Source: a virus
Virus record (IMG/VR): IMGVR_UViG_3300030060_007278
Span: 1 to 33,869 of that record
Reading direction: 5' to 3' (one strand)
Length of the DNA: 33,869 bases
Both the position numbers and the translations under genes were made by a program. Under the pieces are notes generated by a model, which worked only from the letters and a program-made list of their open reading frames with translations, ran no database searches and had not been told where the DNA came from. Each line of letters begins with the position of its first letter. The first letter of the stretch is position 1. Shown piece after piece: positions 1,022 through 11,334 of this stretch.

Positions 1022-1695
1022 AACGAACCAGCAAACTCCAATAGATTATCAAACACTTGAACATCATTGTACTTAGAACTAATACCTTTCAGATGTTCTT
1101 TCTCTGTCTTTTCTCCTTTACCAGTCCTTACTAGAATTGGTTTAGCACCTGCTTTCTGTGCCATCTTAATATCTTCTATGGTGTCACCAACATAATATCC
1201 TTTTTTAAAATCAACATTCATTTCCTGAGTTGCTCGATTCAACATACCTATATTTGGTTTAGCATAAGGATCTTGAATATTATCACTCTGATTATAATAG
1301 AAACCATCAATACTCATGATTCCTGCATTACCAAAGTTCTGCATATAAAAACCTTGTAGGTTATTTACATCTTGATCTGACAGCAACCCTCTAGAAATAT
1401 TAGGTTGATCTGAAAATAATACAACTCTATGACCCTTCAATCTTAATTGCTTCATTGCTTCAAGAGAACCAGCAATAAATTTTACATCCTCATATCTTTT
1501 AATGACATTCTTCCATTCATTAATAACACCATCACGATCAATACCAATTACAGGACCATTAAAGGTAGTTGGCCAATCTGCAGGTTGTTGTGGTGGCATC
1601 CCCATTTGTTGAGGGGGAGATCCACCATTATTAGGTGTTGAAGTTGGAAATTGAACAGGTTGTGTTGGTGGTTGTTTTGATTTATATCTTCCCAT
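1018..1695 (-). CDS. gmhB: HAD-family D,D-heptose 1,7-bisphosphate phosphatase
   Basis: 225 residues. HAD motifs are in order: DRDGVIN with nucleophile D53 and D55, FSDQ (S95) for motif II, KPNIG (K146) for motif III, and VGDTIEDI (D171, D175) for motif IV, followed by the LVRTGKG stretch typical of GmhB. The family removes the 7-phosphate of heptose 1,7-bisphosphate, between the kinase and nucleotidyltransferase steps. Two oddities: the first 45 or so residues are a Pro/Gln/Asn-rich low-complexity extension absent from GmhB, and the zinc-binding cysteine loop of typical GmhB is missing (no Cys near residues 130-145). The start overlaps the end of the carbamoyltransferase gene by 14 bases. 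A histidinol-phosphatase-like activity cannot be excluded from sequence alone. Confidence 0.8.
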   Translation of the reverse strand: MGRYKSKQPPTQPVQFPTSTPNNGGSPPQQMGMPPQQPADWPTTFNGPVIGIDRDGVINEWKNVIKRYEDVKFIAGSLEAMKQLRLKGHRVVLFSDQPNISRGLLSDQDVNNLQGFYMQNFGNAGIMSIDGFYYNQSDNIQDPYAKPNIGMLNRATQEMNVDFKKGYYVGDTIEDIKMAQKAGAKPILVRTGKGEKTEKEHLKGISSKYNDVQVFDNLLEFAGSL

Positions 1696-3520
1696 TGTCT
1701 TTTCCTCTTGGTCTTAAGTTAGAACGTTCGTTGGACAAGAAAACTAACTTACCTATTTCAGGTAGATATAAGTATTCTAACTGACTGTTAAATAAAGTAG
1801 TTATAGCATCATCTAAAGTATCAACCAAAGGTTGTCCACCAAGATTAAAGCTTGTATTGAAGAGAATAGGAACTCCAGAAAGCTTATAGAACTCATTAAT
1901 AAGATCATAATAGTTCTTATTCTGTTCTTGAGTCACAGTCTGTATTCTACAAGTACCATCAACATGAGTGATAGAAGGTAGATCTCCAATATGTGCATCT
2001 TGCATTTCCATAGCATACATCATATATGGAGTTTCATCAAGACCCCTCATATCAAACCATTCTGCAGCATGTTCTTGGAGAATAGAACCAGCAAACGGTC
2101 TAAACCATTCTCTGCCTTTAACATTATTGACAAAATCCTTACCATTAGGATCTGTTGGATCATAAAGAATAGAACGATTACCCAATGCTCTTGGACCTGC
2201 TTCTGCTCTTCCTTGATATATGGAAACTATCTTGCGATCCTTAATCAATTGTGCAACATCTGCTGCTGTTACATCAGTAACATTGATTAAACCCTCTCCT
2301 TCATCTTTAAGAATTCCATATTTTTTTAAATCATCTGGTGTATAATTATATTCACTTCCAAGATAAAGAGTAGTTAAAGGATCTTTTGGATGTTCCTTAA
2401 ATGGTTCATCTGTTTCATTATGTTCTTTTAATTTTTGATTATGTTGCTCAATCTGTTGGTGAGCAAATAGTTTACCTGCACCAACAACAGTGCCACCATC
2501 ATGACATATAGGATCAATGTAAATGTTTAACTCAGGGAATCTTTCTTTAAAATAATAATTTGCTATTACATTCAATCCATACCCACCAGAAATAACAATA
2601 TTATTCTCTCCAGTCATATCCACTGCCCTTTCAATTAAATCACCAACATATTGTTGAGTTTCTTCTTGAACAGCCCATGCAATATTCTTTTGTACTGATT
2701 TTACTTTATTTTTATTATAATGCCACTCTGTATTATCTTCTCCATCATAATCTAGATAACCATACCTCTTAGTATCAATCCACGCACCTGCTGGATAATT
2801 AGGAACGAATACATTTTTATCACCTCTTCCACCTTCTCTTAGTAACTGTGGAATCTTAGGATCTTTTTTACCATAAGGAGCAAGACCCATTGTTTTTCCT
2901 GCTTCAATTGGACCCCACCCCAAATATTGAGTTACTGCTTCATATGCCTTAACTGTTGTAATTGCACCATCAACATCATATTGAATTCCATCTACAGTTT
3001 GATTCATAGCATATCCAAAATTATTTGAATACCTTTTGAAAAGTGGTTGGATATCACCAGGAAAAGTACATTTATATATACTTTCCGTTTCATATGATTG
3101 AATCTTATTATTTTGTTCTTCATTATCTAGTTTTATATCCTGTAGACTTCCACATCCATCTACAACCAAAGCAACTGCTTCATCAAAACCAGATCCATAA
3201 AAGGCAGATGCAGCATGTTGTAAATGATGTTCATTACCCATCTTAACAACTTGAGATTGAGGATAGAATTTTTTAACCAGTGCAGAATAAGAATCATCAC
3301 CAGTCCAAGGAAGTCGATGTTCTTCTTGACCTGTTCCCCCAATGACAAGTAAATCAATATGGTTTTCATCCATGATTTTAAGCATCCCCCTATAGGGATT
3401 CCCATCTCTTTTAAACCTAGAAAGTCTTTCTTCCTCAATATAAACATCAAGGATTCCATCTTTAATTAATGCAGCAGATCCATTATGACCTGGATTGATT
3501 GCTAATATGTTAAATGTCAT
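1682..3520 (-). CDS. NodU/CmcH-family carbamoyltransferase
   Basis: A full-length 612-residue member of the carbamoyltransferase family (NodU, CmcH, TobZ). The N-terminal ASKHA/Kae1-like domain starts ILAINPGHNGSAAL and has the EEERLSRFK segment, the metal-binding-type HHLQHAASAF (residues 98-107), VVDGCGS, and GKTMGLAPYG. ISGGYGLN and PICHDGGTVVGAG follow at about residues 310-350. The C-terminal half has EAGPRALGNRSIL, FRPFAGSI and SGVPILFNTSFN, all family hallmarks. These enzymes move the carbamoyl group of carbamoyl phosphate, via carbamoyl-adenylate, onto a sugar hydroxyl. The start at 3520 abuts the GT9 stop. In this operon the acceptor is most simply a heptose or another surface sugar, but that is inference. 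Confidence 0.93.
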   Translation of the reverse strand: MTFNILAINPGHNGSAALIKDGILDVYIEEERLSRFKRDGNPYRGMLKIMDENHIDLLVIGGTGQEEHRLPWTGDDSYSALVKKFYPQSQVVKMGNEHHLQHAASAFYGSGFDEAVALVVDGCGSLQDIKLDNEEQNNKIQSYETESIYKCTFPGDIQPLFKRYSNNFGYAMNQTVDGIQYDVDGAITTVKAYEAVTQYLGWGPIEAGKTMGLAPYGKKDPKIPQLLREGGRGDKNVFVPNYPAGAWIDTKRYGYLDYDGEDNTEWHYNKNKVKSVQKNIAWAVQEETQQYVGDLIERAVDMTGENNIVISGGYGLNVIANYYFKERFPELNIYIDPICHDGGTVVGAGKLFAHQQIEQHNQKLKEHNETDEPFKEHPKDPLTTLYLGSEYNYTPDDLKKYGILKDEGEGLINVTDVTAADVAQLIKDRKIVSIYQGRAEAGPRALGNRSILYDPTDPNGKDFVNNVKGREWFRPFAGSILQEHAAEWFDMRGLDETPYMMYAMEMQDAHIGDLPSITHVDGTCRIQTVTQEQNKNYYDLINEFYKLSGVPILFNTSFNLGGQPLVDTLDDAITTLFNSQLEYLYLPEIGKLVFLSNERSNLRPRGKDNGKI

Positions 3521-4461
3521 TATACAGTCTCCTTAATATGTTTTGCAATGTTTGAATATATTTCATTAATTTGATCGTCATTGAAATCCATAAGACGATC
3601 ATTTAATCTATCTGCTAGATGTGAATCAAATCCACATGCACGAATAGGTGAGTATGTTTTTGGTATATCTTCATTTTCTATAATATTAAACCAATCAGAG
3701 TACGTGATATTCTCAGCATAAGTTGATCCAAGAATAACGGATCCTGGTTTATCAAATGCTCTTGCCATATGCTGACCTAAACTATCACATCCAATAAAGT
3801 AATCAGATGCTTCAATGATAGCACTCCACATACGAAGATCTCCCTGTGGTTTTTCTGATATTGTATCTTCTTGTGCTACTGCTTGGCAGAAATCAGGTTC
3901 TGCCATCAATATAATATTATATTTCTGAGATAACTTCTTAACTAACTTATAATATACATTTGGTTCAATTGATCTTGTACTATCATCTATAATATCCCCA
4001 TTATCAACTCTTGCAGACCTTCCAAATGGTTGAATTACGATTGTTTTATTCTTACTCTGTTTAGATTCTACTGCTGCTATAAGATTAGAAGCACCTTTCT
4101 CCTCTGCTTTAGCTAAGTAAAGATGAGGGGGATCTAAATCAGAATGATCATCAGTCTCATTAATAATCTTATCAAACCCTTCTACCAAAGAACACTTCTG
4201 ATTGTAGTATTCCCAGAGTAAATATGGTTCTGGATGGATTACCTGATTGTCTTTAATTAAAAGATTGAATATACCCTTTACATCCATACTGTACGTCTTC
4301 TCTTGAAGAAGACGATTACCAAACATCAAAGTGTCCCATCCACCTATGATAATACCAAAGTCTTTATCTGGATTTTTCTTTGCGTATTTCTCTAATGCTG
4401 GAATTGCACATATAACTCTACCTGCTCCACCATCAAGGTGAAAAACTTTCTTGCGTTCCAT
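3520..4461 (-). CDS. GT9-family glycosyltransferase (ADP-heptose:LPS heptosyltransferase-like)
   Basis: 313 residues, first gene of the sugar operon. The N-terminus HLDGGAGRVICAIPALEKYA is the Rossmann-like acceptor-side motif of GT9 enzymes (normally a GDxL-type loop followed by a P-A-L helix). The C-terminal nucleotide-sugar domain has TIVIQPFG, then YFIGCDSLGQHMARAFDKP and SVILGST, matching the heptosyltransferase D-(T/S)-G-x-x-H-x-A-A motif with Leu-Gly in place of Gly-Leu. GT9 enzymes transfer heptose from ADP-heptose to the LPS core; here the product of the genes downstream would be the donor. It is preceded by a sigma70-like promoter overlapped by a late promoter. The acceptor is unknown and could be host LPS, capsule or a phage component. 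Confidence 0.78.
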   Translation of the reverse strand: MERKKVFHLDGGAGRVICAIPALEKYAKKNPDKDFGIIIGGWDTLMFGNRLLQEKTYSMDVKGIFNLLIKDNQVIHPEPYLLWEYYNQKCSLVEGFDKIINETDDHSDLDPPHLYLAKAEEKGASNLIAAVESKQSKNKTIVIQPFGRSARVDNGDIIDDSTRSIEPNVYYKLVKKLSQKYNIILMAEPDFCQAVAQEDTISEKPQGDLRMWSAIIEASDYFIGCDSLGQHMARAFDKPGSVILGSTYAENITYSDWFNIIENEDIPKTYSPIRACGFDSHLADRLNDRLMDFNDDQINEIYSNIAKHIKETV

Positions 4462-4536: not shown

Positions 4537-5496
4537 CTATACCGTAGAAACCCCAACGCTTGTAGTGACACCCGATAAACCATGACAATTAACAGTAAAT
4601 TCAAGTGTAGTATCTACCTCAACAGTAGGAACAGATATGGTTACTGTACCAACTCCACTTAGTGTTGATTTATTAGGTGATATTGTAAGTTCTCCGTCAT
4701 AGATTCCTACATTTATATTTTTTGTAATCCATGTCACATCTTGATCTTGTTCTTGGTTAGTGAATGTAATAGTAAAGTTAACATTACTTCCACCGACAAG
4801 AGTGTATGGTTGAGGGGTTACTGTCAATGATAATTCTGGTCTATCTTGCTCATAATATTGAGGTTCAACTCTTGCAAAAGCTATTTTTAACGGAACCTTA
4901 ACAGAATTTACTGCATCTAAAGTTATAGTTGTTGTTCCAATACCAGCAACGGTTCCAATATTTTCTTGAGTTTCCGTTTTAACCCAGTCACCTACTACAA
5001 TATTATCAGTAGAAGCTACTCCAATAATCTTCGACAATCCAGTTCCTGTTGATGATAAACCAACAGAATCACATTCTACCCAATTCTTAACAACAATACC
5101 TGTAGTTAAACCTACCCATGATGTTGTTCCTATACCTAGTGCATCAGTATCCGATTTAACAAACTCAATATATCCATCTTCAGGAGTTGCTGCACCAGGT
5201 CTTTTTGGTATATCAGATTCAGCAAACCAAATAGGTGCATCTGAACTACCTGGCATATTTCTAAGTGCCTGGCGATATGTTGCCCATGCAGTTTTGGTAC
5301 TACTATCCAAAGGAGAATCTTCTCCTTGTGTCCAGTCTGATGCAAGAAGTTCTTTATCCCTAAAATTTCTCAAAGTTATCATATGATCTCTTACAAAATC
5401 ATTATGATTTTCCAATCTACCTGCTAATTCATCCTGCAAGTCACGAACTTCTTCTGTTCTTGTAGTTGTTCCGTCTGAGTTAAAGATAATTCCCAT
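4537..5496 (-). CDS. tail fibre assembly/adhesin protein with tail-assembly-chaperone-like N-terminus and Ig-like C-terminus
   Basis: 319 residues. Residues about 37-85 contain LRNFRDKELLASDWTQ and AWATYRQALRNMP, the pattern of the phage tail-fibre assembly chaperone family, in which SDWT and W-x-x-YRQALR-x-x-P are hallmarks. The middle is a GIGTT/V-rich beta segment like those in neighbouring fibre proteins. The last 90 or so residues (LSLTVTPQPYTLVGGSNVNF through LEFTVN) look like an immunoglobulin-type beta-sandwich. It follows the two Cys-rich genes by 12 bases with a good ribosome-binding site (AGAGGAT). It may help fold or cap the fibres encoded upstream, or be a fibre component itself; the exact role is not resolved. 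Confidence 0.7.
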   Translation of the reverse strand: MGIIFNSDGTTTRTEEVRDLQDELAGRLENHNDFVRDHMITLRNFRDKELLASDWTQGEDSPLDSSTKTAWATYRQALRNMPGSSDAPIWFAESDIPKRPGAATPEDGYIEFVKSDTDALGIGTTSWVGLTTGIVVKNWVECDSVGLSSTGTGLSKIIGVASTDNIVVGDWVKTETQENIGTVAGIGTTTITLDAVNSVKVPLKIAFARVEPQYYEQDRPELSLTVTPQPYTLVGGSNVNFTITFTNQEQDQDVTWITKNINVGIYDGELTISPNKSTLSGVGTVTISVPTVEVDTTLEFTVNCHGLSGVTTSVGVSTV

Positions 5497-5508: not shown

Positions 5509-6378
5509 TTAAGATGTAGTCATACAACAAATACCAAACTCTGGTGCATTATCACATGGTATACCATAGAATGTCCAGCACGGTCTTCCTATAGCAGTAA
5601 CACCACCTTGACCACTACCCTCTCCAGGATAGGCTCCTGCTACACAAGCAGACTGGAATGGTGCATTAGTTAATTGTATACACACAGTATCTAGATAATT
5701 GGTGGTATTCTGCTCCTTACTCCACATCAAACATTGACATATAGCAGTATGACCAACTTGCCTATCACATCCTGAACTATTCCATAATTGACAATATCCA
5801 AGAACTGGAAACTTATTATAGTTCAACCAATAATTTATAGTATGAGCTCTACACAAACAAGCTTTCCATCCTGGAGCTGCTATCCCAAATTCCATATGAG
5901 TTATACTATCATATTGAGTGTTGCAACAATAATGACAAACACCCGAAAACATCATACAACATTGTCCTTGGTTTGGAACACCACAACAAGAACTTACTGG
6001 CCAACCACACATACAACCAACACAATAAGTATTGCTACATCGACAATAACAATTTGAACCTTTGCTGCCCTTCATTCCAAAACACATGTGCTGCATACAA
6101 CATGCACACATTCTTATACCCCTATAACACCACTTAAATGCCCTATACAAGCTTGTATCAATATGCCATTCTACAGTACATCCATAACAATCATTCCAAT
6201 CGGGACAATTGCAAATAGTAACCCATTCATTAAATCCTGGCATGATACGAGTAGTACCAGCAGTCGGAGCCTGTGTGGCTAAAGTGCAAATGGTATTACA
6301 AACATCTGCTGCTGTTAATCCAGCAGAACCACCACTGGATGTACCAGTGGATGAGACTGTTTTAATATAACGTGTCAT
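5509..6378 (-). CDS. cysteine-rich putative fibre/adhesin protein (36 Cys in 289 residues)
   Basis: 289 residues with 36 cysteines (12.5%), spread from residue about 27 to the C-terminus, including five CC doublets and many CxC or CxxC pairs; Trp, Tyr, Gly and Met are also frequent. The first 25 residues (MTRYIKTVSSTGTSSGGSAG...) are a Ser/Gly/Thr-rich fibre-type leader without cysteine. There is no signal peptide or membrane segment. The start overlaps the stop of the 894-residue Cys-rich gene (TAATG), so the two are surely co-translated. The function is not recognised; position among fibre genes suggests a virion surface protein. Cysteines could form disulfides after lysis or bind metal. 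The intact frame, coupling and shared composition with its neighbour argue that it is a real gene. Confidence 0.8.
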   Translation of the reverse strand: MTRYIKTVSSTGTSSGGSAGLTAADVCNTICTLATQAPTAGTTRIMPGFNEWVTICNCPDWNDCYGCTVEWHIDTSLYRAFKWCYRGIRMCACCMQHMCFGMKGSKGSNCYCRCSNTYCVGCMCGWPVSSCCGVPNQGQCCMMFSGVCHYCCNTQYDSITHMEFGIAAPGWKACLCRAHTINYWLNYNKFPVLGYCQLWNSSGCDRQVGHTAICQCLMWSKEQNTTNYLDTVCIQLTNAPFQSACVAGAYPGEGSGQGGVTAIGRPCWTFYGIPCDNAPEFGICCMTTS

Positions 6379-9062
6379 TAACCTTCATACCCCCAAACTT
6401 GGACATTAATTGGTTGATCAGCACTATGATTTTTAATCGAAAGTCGATCACCATCAGAAAGAACTATACCAGTTCTTTCATACTGATTCATTTCTGTACA
6501 TAGATCAATAAGTCCAGAACAATCCATACACTTCATAAATGTATCTTGATTTGATATAACCTTTGCTTGAGCAAGACATAAGCAACATGTATGTAATGGA
6601 TCCTCACAAACTGTTTGGTTGAATGGTGACTTATCCCATGTAATCAAGTCTTTCGATGTCCAAGGATCCCATGCACATGTATTACAGTTGTATAGAGATA
6701 TTGTCCATTCACTGAAACTATATCTGTATAGACATGAGACACACATTCTTGGGGTTACATAATACTCACATAACCAATCAGATGGGAAGTTTGCTACCTT
6801 ACACCAGAAGGTAGTAACAATACCAGATCGACCTGCAGCACTATCATTTGCCCATACACATACTGAAGCATCATATGCCAGTCCAAGTCTTATGCATCTT
6901 TCAGAGATGCATCCACATGCAAATGTAGTAAATGTTCCAGCCTTACATACTCCTGCTGTTTTATTAATTCTCCTTGCATTGAAAGAGAAGACTCCACAAG
7001 ATGGGTTCACCCCATTCAGGGCAGCACATGAACATGCGGTTGGACAGTCTACTGCTGTAGCAATACCAGTTCGGAATAATCCATAATGGCAGCATTTTCT
7101 TGGGTTATATGCAAAGTACTTAAGTGTAAATTCTGCACCCACACAAGATTCATGCAATGCTGTATTCCAATCAGGTCTATGATACTTGGAGTTATAATTA
7201 TTACCATCAATATTCCTATTACCACTACTGTCGCAATATCCAACTCCAACCATCATTGTAATTACAGTTGGACAGTTTGATGTGCCAGCACAACAACGAA
7301 ATGCATGTACATGAGGGAATCCAATATTGTACATAGTACCACAGCATCTATTAAAGTACTGCATAACAAACAATCCACATGATACCGCACATGCAACTCC
7401 ATAAGGACTCATTGGTATGCTAGAATCATATATTTTTGGACCCCATTGATTTATACAACAATTACATCCAATTGCACAACAGCACTGTGGCCAACAGAAC
7501 CACGGATTGAAACCGTCCTGTTGGTTTGTGGTTATATATGCACTTTGGTCATAACTACATCCAAAAGCAAGAGCTCTTCCGCAGTTGGTATACTCACTAC
7601 AACAGATACAAAAGTCCATAGATCTATTATGCACGCACATCGAATTCCAGTGCATAGCAAATACACCAGCACTACCAACTACATTGGTGTGACCATCACA
7701 TTTAAGACAATATCCATTATCCCATTCTTCCTTCTGACATAAATTACCACAACATTGTTGCCAAGCGGAAGATGTAGCAGTTCCACATCTTCTCCATGTA
7801 TAGAAATTACCATCTTCATCAATACAATGATGCTCACAGAAATTAGCGTATTGACTTGGATCTAATGCCCACCAGTTAGCAAATGCCCCTACATCAAACA
7901 TACAAGTACACCACCATCTACATGAGCAGTTTTGTGATCCTCCTCTGAGGATAAACTGCTGAAGACATCTTTTTGGTCCGTAACCATTACCACCACCTGC
8001 ACCATAAGCACAACAACATACACCAGGACCATAAGGAACATATCCTACAGCAGCATCACATGCACAAAATCCTCGTGGGCAAGTTCCACCAAGATAAGTT
8101 TGATACACTTCAGTACAAGGAAGTGGGTTTACAGTGAATCTTGCACCCAGATCATAATTTGATGTATCAATATTACATGCAGTAATGACATAGAAATCTT
8201 TCATTCTACCTCTTCCGCAACAGTGACCACTCCAAGGGTTAGTGTAATTGCACCATCCAGGAATTAGACCCACTATATGAGACCAATCACTACATCCCCT
8301 ACAACAGTAGTTGCAAGTAAGACTATTATAATTGGGAACTCCATTCGTATCACAACCATCATACAAACACGTTCTACAGAATCCCAATGTTAATGAATGT
8401 TGAGTAGTACCACCATAAGGTGCTTTTACCCAACATTCACATTTACAAATATCTGCGTTACCACTATTAATGCAGGAACCAATACAAGTTCCAGTCATGG
8501 TACAGGAAGCGTATGGATAACCCTCACTATTTTCTTTCAGTGTCGTATTATCACTACACAATTTCCGACACAAGAAACTTGTCATTGACCCTGCAATGGA
8601 GACATATTCCATGTATGCCCAAGGTGTTCTTGTAGATTTTCCAAATCCAATAGGTTGGTCACAGGATCCGTTACCGTGCCCTGGATCAACATTATTATAA
8701 GTGAATCCTATTCCAGGAGCACATAATTGAGCTCTATAGAACCCAGTTGTCATACCCTGTGTTAATTGCTTAGATGCATCACATTGATAAGGATTACAAT
8801 AATTCCATCCAGCAAAACAGCATAAGTTGCATGTGATGGTAGTACCAATACCAACACCATTAGCACCTACATCAAAAACTGTACTTGATAAATTAAAAGC
8901 TGTTGCTGCTACTCCAACAACAGTTGTTATTCTTGCATTAGTATTCGTACTAATAGAATTAGAAAATAGAGTGACAGACGCAGCACTACCTGAGTCATTT
9001 ACATACAACTCACATGCACATTGACCGTTTAAAACAGCTCTTGCTAACCTTCCGTTTGGCAT
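6378..9062 (-). CDS. giant cysteine-rich fibre-tip protein: small fibre domain interrupted by a ~780-residue Cys-rich insert
   Basis: 894 residues with about 94 cysteines (10.5%), including about a dozen CC or CCC clusters. Residues 1-75 (MPNGRLARAVLNG..., ELYVND, SVTLFSNSI) have almost the normal composition of a short marine-phage fibre protein. The last 33 residues (ERTGIVLSDGDRLSIKN, INVQVWGYEG) look like the end of that same small fibre family. Everything between is Cys-, Trp-, Tyr- and Gly-rich. Segments such as SKDLITWD and DGNFYTW recall beta-propeller blades, but no repeat is clear enough to call. It is preceded by a perfect late promoter and a GGGGG ribosome-binding site. Function unknown; probably a receptor-binding or tail-tip protein held by disulfides or metal. 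Confidence 0.82.
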   Translation of the reverse strand: MPNGRLARAVLNGQCACELYVNDSGSAASVTLFSNSISTNTNARITTVVGVAATAFNLSSTVFDVGANGVGIGTTITCNLCCFAGWNYCNPYQCDASKQLTQGMTTGFYRAQLCAPGIGFTYNNVDPGHGNGSCDQPIGFGKSTRTPWAYMEYVSIAGSMTSFLCRKLCSDNTTLKENSEGYPYASCTMTGTCIGSCINSGNADICKCECWVKAPYGGTTQHSLTLGFCRTCLYDGCDTNGVPNYNSLTCNYCCRGCSDWSHIVGLIPGWCNYTNPWSGHCCGRGRMKDFYVITACNIDTSNYDLGARFTVNPLPCTEVYQTYLGGTCPRGFCACDAAVGYVPYGPGVCCCAYGAGGGNGYGPKRCLQQFILRGGSQNCSCRWWCTCMFDVGAFANWWALDPSQYANFCEHHCIDEDGNFYTWRRCGTATSSAWQQCCGNLCQKEEWDNGYCLKCDGHTNVVGSAGVFAMHWNSMCVHNRSMDFCICCSEYTNCGRALAFGCSYDQSAYITTNQQDGFNPWFCWPQCCCAIGCNCCINQWGPKIYDSSIPMSPYGVACAVSCGLFVMQYFNRCCGTMYNIGFPHVHAFRCCAGTSNCPTVITMMVGVGYCDSSGNRNIDGNNYNSKYHRPDWNTALHESCVGAEFTLKYFAYNPRKCCHYGLFRTGIATAVDCPTACSCAALNGVNPSCGVFSFNARRINKTAGVCKAGTFTTFACGCISERCIRLGLAYDASVCVWANDSAAGRSGIVTTFWCKVANFPSDWLCEYYVTPRMCVSCLYRYSFSEWTISLYNCNTCAWDPWTSKDLITWDKSPFNQTVCEDPLHTCCLCLAQAKVISNQDTFMKCMDCSGLIDLCTEMNQYERTGIVLSDGDRLSIKNHSADQPINVQVWGYEG

Positions 9063-9113
9063 TTTAAACTATTCCCCCAAGAATAAGTATTGTGACTGTC
9101 ATTTAAGTATATT

Positions 9114-9121
9114 TATTTATA
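9114..9121 (-). promoter_or_regulatory. T4-type late promoter for the Cys-rich operon
   Basis: The minus strand carries a perfect TATAAATA, 52 bases upstream of the ATG at 9062 and directly after the stop of the 584-residue fibre gene (9126). Transcription would run through the two Cys-rich genes and the assembly protein. A GGGGGAAT ribosome-binding site follows. Confidence 0.75.
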
Positions 9122-9125
9122 TTAT

Positions 9126-10880
9126 TTACGTTGTTCTTACAACAGACCCACCACCAATTAGATAGAGAGTCTTACCATTTCCACCACCACCGCCACCACC
9201 AGAAATGCTGATGTCGATGCTGTTAGTAGCTCCATTATATAAAAATGTATTTCCTGTTCCTACAAAGTTCAATTGAGTAATACCAACACCAACTCTTAGT
9301 CCTGCAGAACTGATTCCAATCGCAGATGTGAAGTTAGTACTTACACCAGTTAAATTAGATCCATCGTTGTCAAATACATCAAGAATATTAATCTTACCAC
9401 CCATGTTACCATGAGAAGTACACTGATAATAAAGAGTTGCAGGAGTATCTTGCTGAACATTCCATAAAAGATCAGTACCATTAGCAGCATCATTGTTGGT
9501 TATGCCATCATTAAATGCGGTTCCTGTTGAACCATTTACTGTGCTTTGGATTCTGAATGGATGTCCACCACTTCTATTTTTGAACTTGTACTGTTGACCT
9601 CTTACCAAATAAATAGTCGGATCATTTTCTGCTCCAGTTAAACCTGGACCTGAGAATGTATAATGACTAGTTCCATCTGCCCCTAGTGTCCACTCAGATG
9701 TATAGGTTGCAATACCAGCAACTGTTGAGACACCAGCAGTCTTTGCATAAGTGATATTACCAGTAACATCACCTGAGAATGATGCTGCAGCAAACGTGGA
9801 AAATCCTGTAACCTTAACTTGAGTCGCATCTAACTGTGTAGCAGTTGCGATTCCAGTTACATTCCAGTTGGCAGCAGTTGCCTCATCATATTTGAGATCT
9901 CCACCGACTGTCATATTACCTACGACAGTCAAACTTCTTCCAATCGATACATCTCCACTAATAGTAGATGCACCTGATACAATTATTCCACCAGAACTAA
10001 AGGTAGCAATACCTGCTCCTACTGCCCCAAGAGAAATTGCACCTGCACTTGGTGAAAATAAACCAGTACTACTAGAACCATTGATATAAAGACCTGGTGC
10101 AGCAGCATTACCAACAGTAATTCCCAATCCAGCATACATGGTAGAACCATGACGACTGACATAATCGGTATTACCTTGATTAAATGGAGCAGCATCTACC
10201 CAGAAAGCAGATGATCCAACACCCAACGCAACTTCATCATAATAAACGAAAGTTCTAGCTAAATCAGTGCTATACCATAAGTCTCCACTATTTGGTACAG
10301 GTGTAGTAGGAGCTTCTGTTCCGATACTAACGGAACCGCCTCCACCACCACCTCCTCCTCCTTGGAGATCTATAGTTGCAATTCCTACCGCACTGTTGTA
10401 GATGATGCTTGAAACACCAGCACCAACAAAGTTAAGGAAAGTTGCACCATATCCAATAACACCACCTTCGGTTCTAATTCCGATACCCGATGCTAATGCA
10501 CGAATAACGTTCGTAGTACCACCGTCAAGCGATGAAATATTCTGAAGTTGCCTTGTGGAACTTACAACTTGGTTTGCACCAACGGAGAAAGATCCAGCCG
10601 TAGCTGCCCCAGAAACGTTTATTAAAGTACCTGAAAGTGATGTAACAACACCTACAGGAGCATAGAGTTGATCAAATCTTGCAGTACCACCAACAGCAAC
10701 GTCAACGGTTCCAATACCGCTAACTTGCAATGTAGTAGCACCTATACCCCCCTGAACATGGAGCTTGTGTTCTATTACACTTGTTCCTATTCCAACTGAA
10801 TTAGTAGCAGTATCCGCAACTAGCAGATTTGACTTAACTTCTAATCCATTCTTGACAACAAAATTCTTGTTGACCGCCAT
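9126..10880 (-). CDS. tail fibre protein with embedded cupredoxin-like domain
   Basis: 584 residues. The N-terminus MAVNKNFVVKNGLEVKSNLL and repeated segments such as SVGIGT, GITVGN and LTVVGNMTVGGDL are typical of marine T4-like fibre shafts. Two glycine tracts (residues about 174-182 and 561-567) act as linkers. Residues about 396-501 are different: a beta-rich domain with SGGHPFRIQ (H440) and LYYQCTSHGNMGGKINI (C487, H490, M493), matching the order and spacing style of type-1 copper ligands in plastocyanin-like proteins. The start at 10880 has a GGAGAG ribosome-binding site and lies behind one arm of a divergent late promoter. Its role is host contact or fibre structure; whether it binds copper is untested. 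Confidence 0.85.
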   Translation of the reverse strand: MAVNKNFVVKNGLEVKSNLLVADTATNSVGIGTSVIEHKLHVQGGIGATTLQVSGIGTVDVAVGGTARFDQLYAPVGVVTSLSGTLINVSGAATAGSFSVGANQVVSSTRQLQNISSLDGGTTNVIRALASGIGIRTEGGVIGYGATFLNFVGAGVSSIIYNSAVGIATIDLQGGGGGGGGGSVSIGTEAPTTPVPNSGDLWYSTDLARTFVYYDEVALGVGSSAFWVDAAPFNQGNTDYVSRHGSTMYAGLGITVGNAAAPGLYINGSSSTGLFSPSAGAISLGAVGAGIATFSSGGIIVSGASTISGDVSIGRSLTVVGNMTVGGDLKYDEATAANWNVTGIATATQLDATQVKVTGFSTFAAASFSGDVTGNITYAKTAGVSTVAGIATYTSEWTLGADGTSHYTFSGPGLTGAENDPTIYLVRGQQYKFKNRSGGHPFRIQSTVNGSTGTAFNDGITNNDAANGTDLLWNVQQDTPATLYYQCTSHGNMGGKINILDVFDNDGSNLTGVSTNFTSAIGISSAGLRVGVGITQLNFVGTGNTFLYNGATNSIDISISGGGGGGGNGKTLYLIGGGSVVRTT

Positions 10881-10944: not shown

Positions 10945-11334
10945 ATGGCTGCGACAGTATTGAGTGGAACTGGTAACGTTTCTTATACCAATAACACTGG
11001 ACAGAACGTTAGAATCGTTACTAATTACCTAAAAGCAAATGCTAATACAACATTGTCAATCACTGTAAGTGGAAGCAATGGAACATTTTCAATAACATTG
11101 GGTGGTGGAACAGATTCCGTATCTATAGGTAGAGGATTATCCTATGCTTATAACAGTGGTCAACTAGGAAATGCAGCTGCAAGTGTTGCAGGTGCTAATC
11201 AATCAGGAAATACTTATGAACAATCTGTTCCCACTGAAATAGCGTTAGAAAATGCCCAGACCTATTCCATCACCAAAGCAGGAGGTGGAACAGATCAGGA
11301 CTATAATCTTTTAGTTATCCCTGAGTCAGGTTGA
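10945..11334 (+). CDS. small fibre-like beta protein on the opposite strand
   Basis: 129 residues (MAATVLSGTGNVSYTNNTGQ...), rich in Gly, Ser, Thr and Asn, with alternating hydrophobic beta strands (VRIVTNYL, TLSITVSG, GTFSITLGG) and no Cys. It is the only plus-strand gene in the fibre region, facing its own late promoter 25 bases upstream. Its stop codon directly abuts the stop codon of the 1983-residue fibre gene on the other strand. It resembles small virion decoration or fibre-tip proteins of marine T4-like phages, but I do not recognise a named family. The isolated strand and dedicated promoter suggest a movable cassette or separate dosage control. Confidence 0.7.
   Translation: MAATVLSGTGNVSYTNNTGQNVRIVTNYLKANANTTLSITVSGSNGTFSITLGGGTDSVSIGRGLSYAYNSGQLGNAAASVAGANQSGNTYEQSVPTEIALENAQTYSITKAGGGTDQDYNLLVIPESG

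Follow-up and report, generated by a model that had tools for sequence, protein, structure and literature searches.

Cysteine-rich fibre tips encoded beside sugar-making and sugar-attaching genes suggest cysteines as decoration sites on the host-gripping tip of marine phages

The viral record IMGVR_UViG_3300030060_007278 (33,869 nucleotides, analysed over its full length and called the window below) encodes on its minus strand (6378-9062) an 894 residue protein with 94 cysteines, which has homologues in the phage record MH319759.1 and in two IMG/VR records and which we take to be a putative receptor-binding tail-fibre tip. Here and in related phages such Cys-rich tips lie next to genes for making and attaching a sugar, which suggests that the cysteines are sites for decorating the tip that grips the host. 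We consider it very probable that the Cys-rich tips are functionally coupled to this cassette and its glycosyltransferase (GT). That the cysteines accept an S-linked glycan made by the phage is the best single mechanism we can propose, at roughly even odds, and the glycan would probably be heptose-based and carbamoylated.

A scan of IMG/VR with the GT only returned 80 loci, of which the 72 with more than 1.5 kb of upstream sequence were counted, a Cys-rich gene being defined as an open reading frame (ORF) with at least 6% Cys. Such an ORF lies upstream of the GT in 64 of these 72 loci; the other eight comprise two whose Cys-rich genes are on the other side of the GT, three with fibre genes of 3.7-5.0% Cys, one that is cut short, and two genuine exceptions (L159 and L184). 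Counted in reverse, every one of the 62 loci that combine a Cys-rich glycine-rich tip with downstream sequence exceeding 4.5 kb carries the GT. Each examined record of a cyanophage or single-cell phage that has a near homologue of the GT encodes one to three proteins of ~8-13% Cys directly upstream of it. A whole-genome ORF scan located ORFs with at least 8% Cys in all four GT-positive complete genomes (P-SSM2, S-SSM7, S-CAM1, S-CAM3), in each case immediately upstream of the GT; the seven GT-negative genomes (S-SSM5, Syn9, S-SM1, S-PM2, S-CAM8, P-SSM4, P-HM1) have none. A few ORFs of 5-7.6% Cys occur elsewhere, in GT-positive and GT-negative genomes alike; a 5.8% Cys ORF of Syn9 was rejected as a Cys-rich gene as it appears antisense. 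Where distant GT matches occur in phages of Vibrio and Aeromonas, no Cys-rich fibre is encoded close by, so the link to cysteine appears specific to this GT family. Locus L155 (L155:4124-7934) has the reverse arrangement, with a pair of Cys-rich fibre genes downstream of the GT, not upstream.

The Cys-rich proteins at GT loci belong to at least 10 families without a mutual BLAST match, among them the window pair (the 894 residue protein and a 289 residue neighbour, which show no homology to each other), the glycine-rich tips and several other large fibres; next to these stands a fibre of 17-residue repeats. The Gly_rich_2 Pfam domain contains 1-2 Cys in the GT-negative phages S-CAM8 and S-SSM5, versus 29 Cys in a GT-positive locus. 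This spread of Cys-richness over families that BLAST cannot connect appears to us a stronger point than the locus counts.

How the cysteines are placed can be followed most closely in the repeat fibre (L160:3774-9965), a 2063 residue protein with 101 Cys, beta-roll-like repeats of 17 residues (NTAIGxxALxxNTTGxN), and a Peptidase_S74 chaperone domain at its end. Across 88 aligned units, Cys appears at positions 5, 6, 9, 10 and 15 (rarely 12 and 16) and never at the other ten. The positions it occupies are mostly variable, otherwise holding Tyr, Arg, Lys, Asn, Gly or Ser, and the repeat pattern suggests that they point outward. Cys pairs are as frequent as expected inside one unit (31, against 32.2 +/- 4.5) and across neighbouring units (68, against 69.5 +/- 7.6), and pairs that share a position in adjacent units (10, against 13.0 +/- 3.0) show no excess either. 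Of 99 non-redundant Cys-rich proteins, 54 have an odd number of Cys and 45 an even one, and glycine-rich tips at 75-95% identity frequently differ by one or three Cys. A lost Cys is in most cases exchanged for Ser, Asn, Arg, Thr, Glu or Ala. Because their placement is unpaired and variable, their parity is near balance, and they come and go singly or in threes with this pattern of substitution, the cysteines appear to behave as independent surface sites, unlike obligate disulfide pairs or fixed metal sites.

The count of about 94 Cys in 894 residues given by the first-pass annotation is exact (94, or 10.5%), compared with 0.2-1.7% Cys in the remaining structural proteins of the window. The plus-strand frame over 6378-9062 is riddled with stops, and the ORF sits on the minus strand. 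We read it as protein-coding because its frame is preserved in homologues at 35-36% identity and because differences between the two closest relatives fall on the three codon positions in a coding pattern (0.18/0.16/0.24). The same annotation had cited a perfect late promoter and a GGGGG ribosome-binding site; the latter is present (9074-9078, minus) 11 nt ahead of the ATG, and a T4-type late promoter-like TATAAATA does occur in the gap preceding the gene (9114-9121, minus). This octamer appears 5 times in the window against 4.1 expected, which is chance level, so its backing for expression comes from position, not frequency, and is consistent rather than compelling. As had also been remarked, a hydrophobic N-terminal signal is not visible, though no signal peptide predictor was run. 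Neither the 894 nor the 289 residue protein has any match in Pfam or PHROGs, which leaves the former outside Gly_rich_2 (PF21722), a domain matched by the companion cyanophage tips only, and fixed C-x(n)-C spacings are not enriched in the 894 residue protein.

The large protein had been described as a small fibre domain split by a Cys-rich insert, and its relatives agree with that description. A tblastn search identified one GenBank phage record, marine virus AG-345-O18 (MH319759.1, single-cell-derived), with homologues of both Cys-rich proteins in the same order, and IMG/VR profile searches contributed one close and one distant lineage; the homologues of the large protein are 758 aa (MH319759.1), 757 aa (IMGVR_UViG_3300020470_003365) and 680 aa (IMGVR_UViG_3300026094_000189) long. 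The large proteins are ~36% identical across their full length, and the window protein and that of MH319759 are 50% identical over the first 62 residues and 67% over the last 48. In all four homologues both ends are conserved and the Cys-rich middles are divergent. Accordingly we delimit an N-terminal end (residues 1-75; 8838-9062, minus), a Cys-rich insert (residues 76-858; 6489-8837, minus) holding 92 of the 94 Cys, all between residues 78 and 855, and a C-terminal end (residues 859-894, NQYERTGIVL...VQVWGYEG; 6381-6488, minus). The shorter homologue with both ends that this architecture predicts was found in a family of 106-113 aa proteins (P-SSM2 gp302, S-CAM3 gp160) that contains the two ends co-linearly without the insert, starts MASGxLG..., ends LERTGIVL...VxVxGIE, and is encoded immediately upstream of the Cys-rich genes in cyanophages. 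Profile scores against this short family are modest (E=2e-4 for the C-terminal end, 1.5e-3 for the N-terminal end), and they stay so in the opposite direction, where a search with both ends gave 7e-3 for the top-scoring homologue and 1.5 for the window protein; the register, start to start and end to end, is exact between the short family and all four large proteins. Scanning IMG/VR with one Cys-rich protein of the window at a time gave no matches, nor did an initial two-sequence profile, and relatives of the Cys-rich proteins were not found in a plasmid collection or in GTDB genomes. A separate 129 aa beta-rich ORF (10945-11334, plus), between two fibre genes, has ends loosely like those of the small fibre domain.

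Both Cys-rich genes appear to belong to a fibre block, because the gene upstream of them (9126-10880, minus; 1 Cys) matches a baseplate wedge tail fiber protein connector (phrog_677, E=2.3e-31) and the gene downstream (4537-5496, minus) has a fibre/tail assembly chaperone domain (PF16778, Phage_tail_APC, E=2.6e-14; PHROG tail fiber / tail fiber assembly). The smaller of the two (289 aa, 36 Cys; 5509-6378, minus), absent from the first-pass annotation, is richer in Cys than its large neighbour at 12.5%, and its homologues directly follow the large protein in related loci. For the companion class of glycine-rich Cys-rich tips, a model computed from 70 sequences reached a predicted local distance difference test score (pLDDT) of 84, and among PDB structures it most closely matches the cyanophage Pam3 fibre (7ypx, E=3.9e-7), followed by the mycobacteriophage Bxb1 tail tip; on the strength of this model we take these proteins to be fibre tips. 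For the window protein a receptor-binding role is suggested by sequence and setting. When the two relatives nearest to the window pair are compared, 26% of the residues of the large protein have changed versus 4% in the GT, as expected for a receptor-binding part. The two close relatives (L002:17453-20716 and L003:13166-16480) also encode additional long fibres ending in an unrelated Cys-rich C-terminal domain of ~250 residues, a third Cys-rich tip of these phages.

Downstream of the chaperone gene lie, in order and all on the minus strand, the GT (3520-4461); a carbamoyltransferase of the NodU/TobZ type (1682-3520) with both Carbam_trans_N and Carbam_trans_C domains (PF16861, E=3.4e-59; PF02543, E=1.7e-21); a HAD-family phosphatase, GmhB-like by context (1018-1695; PF13242, E=3e-14); a nucleotidyltransferase resembling the C-terminal part of HldE (623-1021; PF01467, E=2e-17), whose counterparts in P-SSM2 and S-SSM7 are annotated as heptose-1-phosphate adenylyltransferase; and a PfkB sugar kinase resembling the N-terminal part of HldE, truncated at the contig end (3-626; PF00294, E=3.3e-7). 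The order large Cys-rich gene, small Cys-rich gene, chaperone, GT, carbamoyltransferase, HAD phosphatase is common to four lineages, and relatives' cassettes contain an additional epimerase and cupin. The cupin carries the annotation 'cysteine dioxygenase', which we do not read as Cys chemistry, its profile being like that of sugar isomerase cupins. For the cassette-type genes of P-SSM2, S-SSM7, S-CAM1 and S-CAM3 the annotations read Nol-like carbamoyltransferase and heptose kinase/adenylyltransferase. The cassettes of S-SSM7 (L015; NC_015287.1, 105389-108997) and Sf-FS3 (L018) include 2OG-Fe(II) oxygenases and a second carbamoyltransferase, that of S-SSM7 additionally encodes a tryptophan halogenase, and Trp and Tyr are also abundant in the Cys-rich tips, so additional tip modifications are possible.

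The GT resembles GT9/heptosyltransferases. PF01075 (Glyco_transf_9) matches 15 of 34 phage GTs at E<=0.1, with a best value of 6e-6; the window GT has no match and P-SSM2 gp307 (E=0.011) falls below the cut-off. A local profile match connects the phage family to the donor-site region of E. coli WaaF/WaaC/WaaU (DTGL.H.AA), and a motif like the GT9 donor site D-[ST]-x-G/G-x-x-H-x-A is present as D-S-x-G-Q-H-x-A, in which D226, S227 and H231 are invariant among the 34, G229 is kept in 33 and A233 in 31. None of the invariant or near-invariant columns of these 34 GTs is a Cys. A PDB sequence search with the GT profiles returned chance matches only.

The gene, its fibre setting, the nested domain, the near-exclusive GT linkage and the unpaired, surface-type Cys of one repeat fibre are computed observations; from them we infer the tip role of this particular protein, which sugar is used, an S-linkage and an order of steps. 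The receptor-binding tip would be a small beta domain opened by a Cys-rich insert of ~780 residues. The PfkB kinase, HAD phosphatase and nucleotidyltransferase (with the epimerase in relatives) would, judging from their families, supply a donor resembling ADP-heptose; moving the sugar onto Cys thiols of the newly made tip, before or during assembly, would fall to the GT9-like enzyme; and the carbamoyltransferase would cap the sugar. The benefit may be a decorated, quickly changing adhesive surface. More broadly, and at somewhat less than even odds, many marine and freshwater myoviruses may hyper-S-glycosylate their receptor-binding tips, with tips of unrelated fold each having arrived separately at ~10% surface Cys as acceptors of a single carbamoylated, heptose-based sugar encoded by the phage, so that the code would be residue composition and not fold or motif.

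Several points weigh against S-glycosylation of the tips. The GT loci L159 (with only 2 kb upstream) and L184 have no visible Cys-rich gene, and would be useful for learning about further targets of the GT; the loci as a whole are related by descent, and their counts are not independent trials. Assignment of the GT to GT9 by sequence is real but weak, and Arg15 is invariant (34/34) at what appears, in a by-eye alignment outside profile coverage, to be the place of the GT9 catalytic Asp, which may perhaps be relevant to a thiol acceptor. An AlphaFold2 model of the entire 894 aa protein from three sequences was unusable (pLDDT 24). The Cys-rich proteins have no common sequence motif flanking Cys, and Cys is their most conserved residue (0.83), the small Cys-rich protein retaining 31 of 31 at 78% identity, which would be expected of a structural role too.

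This conservation, together with a mild enrichment of CC and nearby Cys neighbours, favours the main rival, a disulfide-armoured tip whose cysteines would pair once lysis has moved it from the reducing cytoplasm into oxygenated seawater, making it stiffer; the cassette would then serve some other purpose. We nevertheless judge it unlikely. The first-pass annotation had suggested disulfides formed after lysis, or bound metal, and both roles are disfavoured by gains and losses of one or three Cys among close relatives, by odd totals as frequent as even ones, by the L160 repeat, where pairs are not in excess and Cys avoids the core positions, and by the two-way linkage to the GT9 gene, which disulfides leave unexplained. 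A metal-binding or iron-carrying tip exploiting host metal uptake would suit the density of Cys and is the least probable of the readings we weighed, the 894 aa protein lacking enriched C-x(n)-C spacings, the L160 cysteines being placed independently of each other, and the cassette again going unaccounted for.

Two further readings start from the cassette. It may remodel the host or another surface, with Cys-rich tips merely co-inherited or recognising its product; lipopolysaccharide (LPS) is the substrate of WaaF-like enzymes, and Sullivan et al. 2010 (PMC3037559) described large clusters of LPS genes for P-SSM2 and S-SSM7, with function unknown or possibly 'stuffer DNA'. Heptose is reported to be absent from cyanobacterial LPS (PMC4515613), so host LPS is disfavoured as the target should the phage infect a cyanobacterium; moreover the tip families are unrelated yet all Cys-rich beside this GT, a shared composition for which hitchhiking does not account, and we hold this reading improbable. 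Less probable still is that the carbamoyltransferase itself modifies Cys by S-carbamoylation, no sugar being attached. Such chemistry has a precedent in HypF, which carbamoylates a HypE Cys, and almost every complete GT9 locus encodes a carbamoyltransferase of the NodU/TobZ type. However, S-CAM8 and S-SSM5 have related carbamoyltransferases without Cys-rich tips, it is GT9 that tracks Cys-richness, and the ADP-heptose genes would be left without a role.

If S-glycosylation of the tips is correct, abundant ocean viruses have a protein-modification system that acts on their host-selecting part and uses Cys as the mass acceptor, a system unreported in the open-access literature we searched, which yielded nothing on marine fibre tips rich in Cys. 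The 'LPS' cassettes of cyanophages like P-SSM2, unexplained for so long, would gain a concrete target, and a broad S-glycosyltransferase taking surface thiols on many folds would be a useful enzyme. Cultured phages carry both Cys-rich tips and the cassette, making the proposal directly testable; its novelty depends on the linkage pattern and on the lack of a counterpart in that literature, and falls if the modification is disproved.

Among known systems, the clusters of P-SSM2 and S-SSM7 (PMC3037559) have the same content, with carbamoyltransferase, heptose kinase/nucleotidyltransferase and epimerase next to the GT; the adjoining Cys-rich tips are annotated hypothetical, and the main text of that paper contains no word starting 'cystein'. 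The Gly_rich_2 tips share the fold of the Pam3 fibre (7ypx), which is common to the cyanophage Cys-rich tips beside this cassette, whereas the Gly_rich_2 members seen in GT9-free phages are nearly Cys-free. Glycocins with S-linked glucose, such as pallidocin (PMC6405829), provide a precedent for a glycosyltransferase acting on Cys, but are small secreted peptides modified at a specific Cys by other enzymes with other sugars. The closest working parallel is TibC/AAH acting on TibA/AIDA-I (PMC4358343), in which a dedicated heptosyltransferase multiply heptosylates an adhesin from an ADP-heptose donor. The phage GT is not a member of that bacterial autotransporter heptosyltransferase (BAHT) family, because it lacks the four-Cys iron finger (the phage family has no conserved Cys). 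There the acceptors are Ser on bacterial autotransporters and a carbamoyltransferase is absent, whereas the proposed phage acceptors are Cys and the neighbours of the phage GT are fibre genes.

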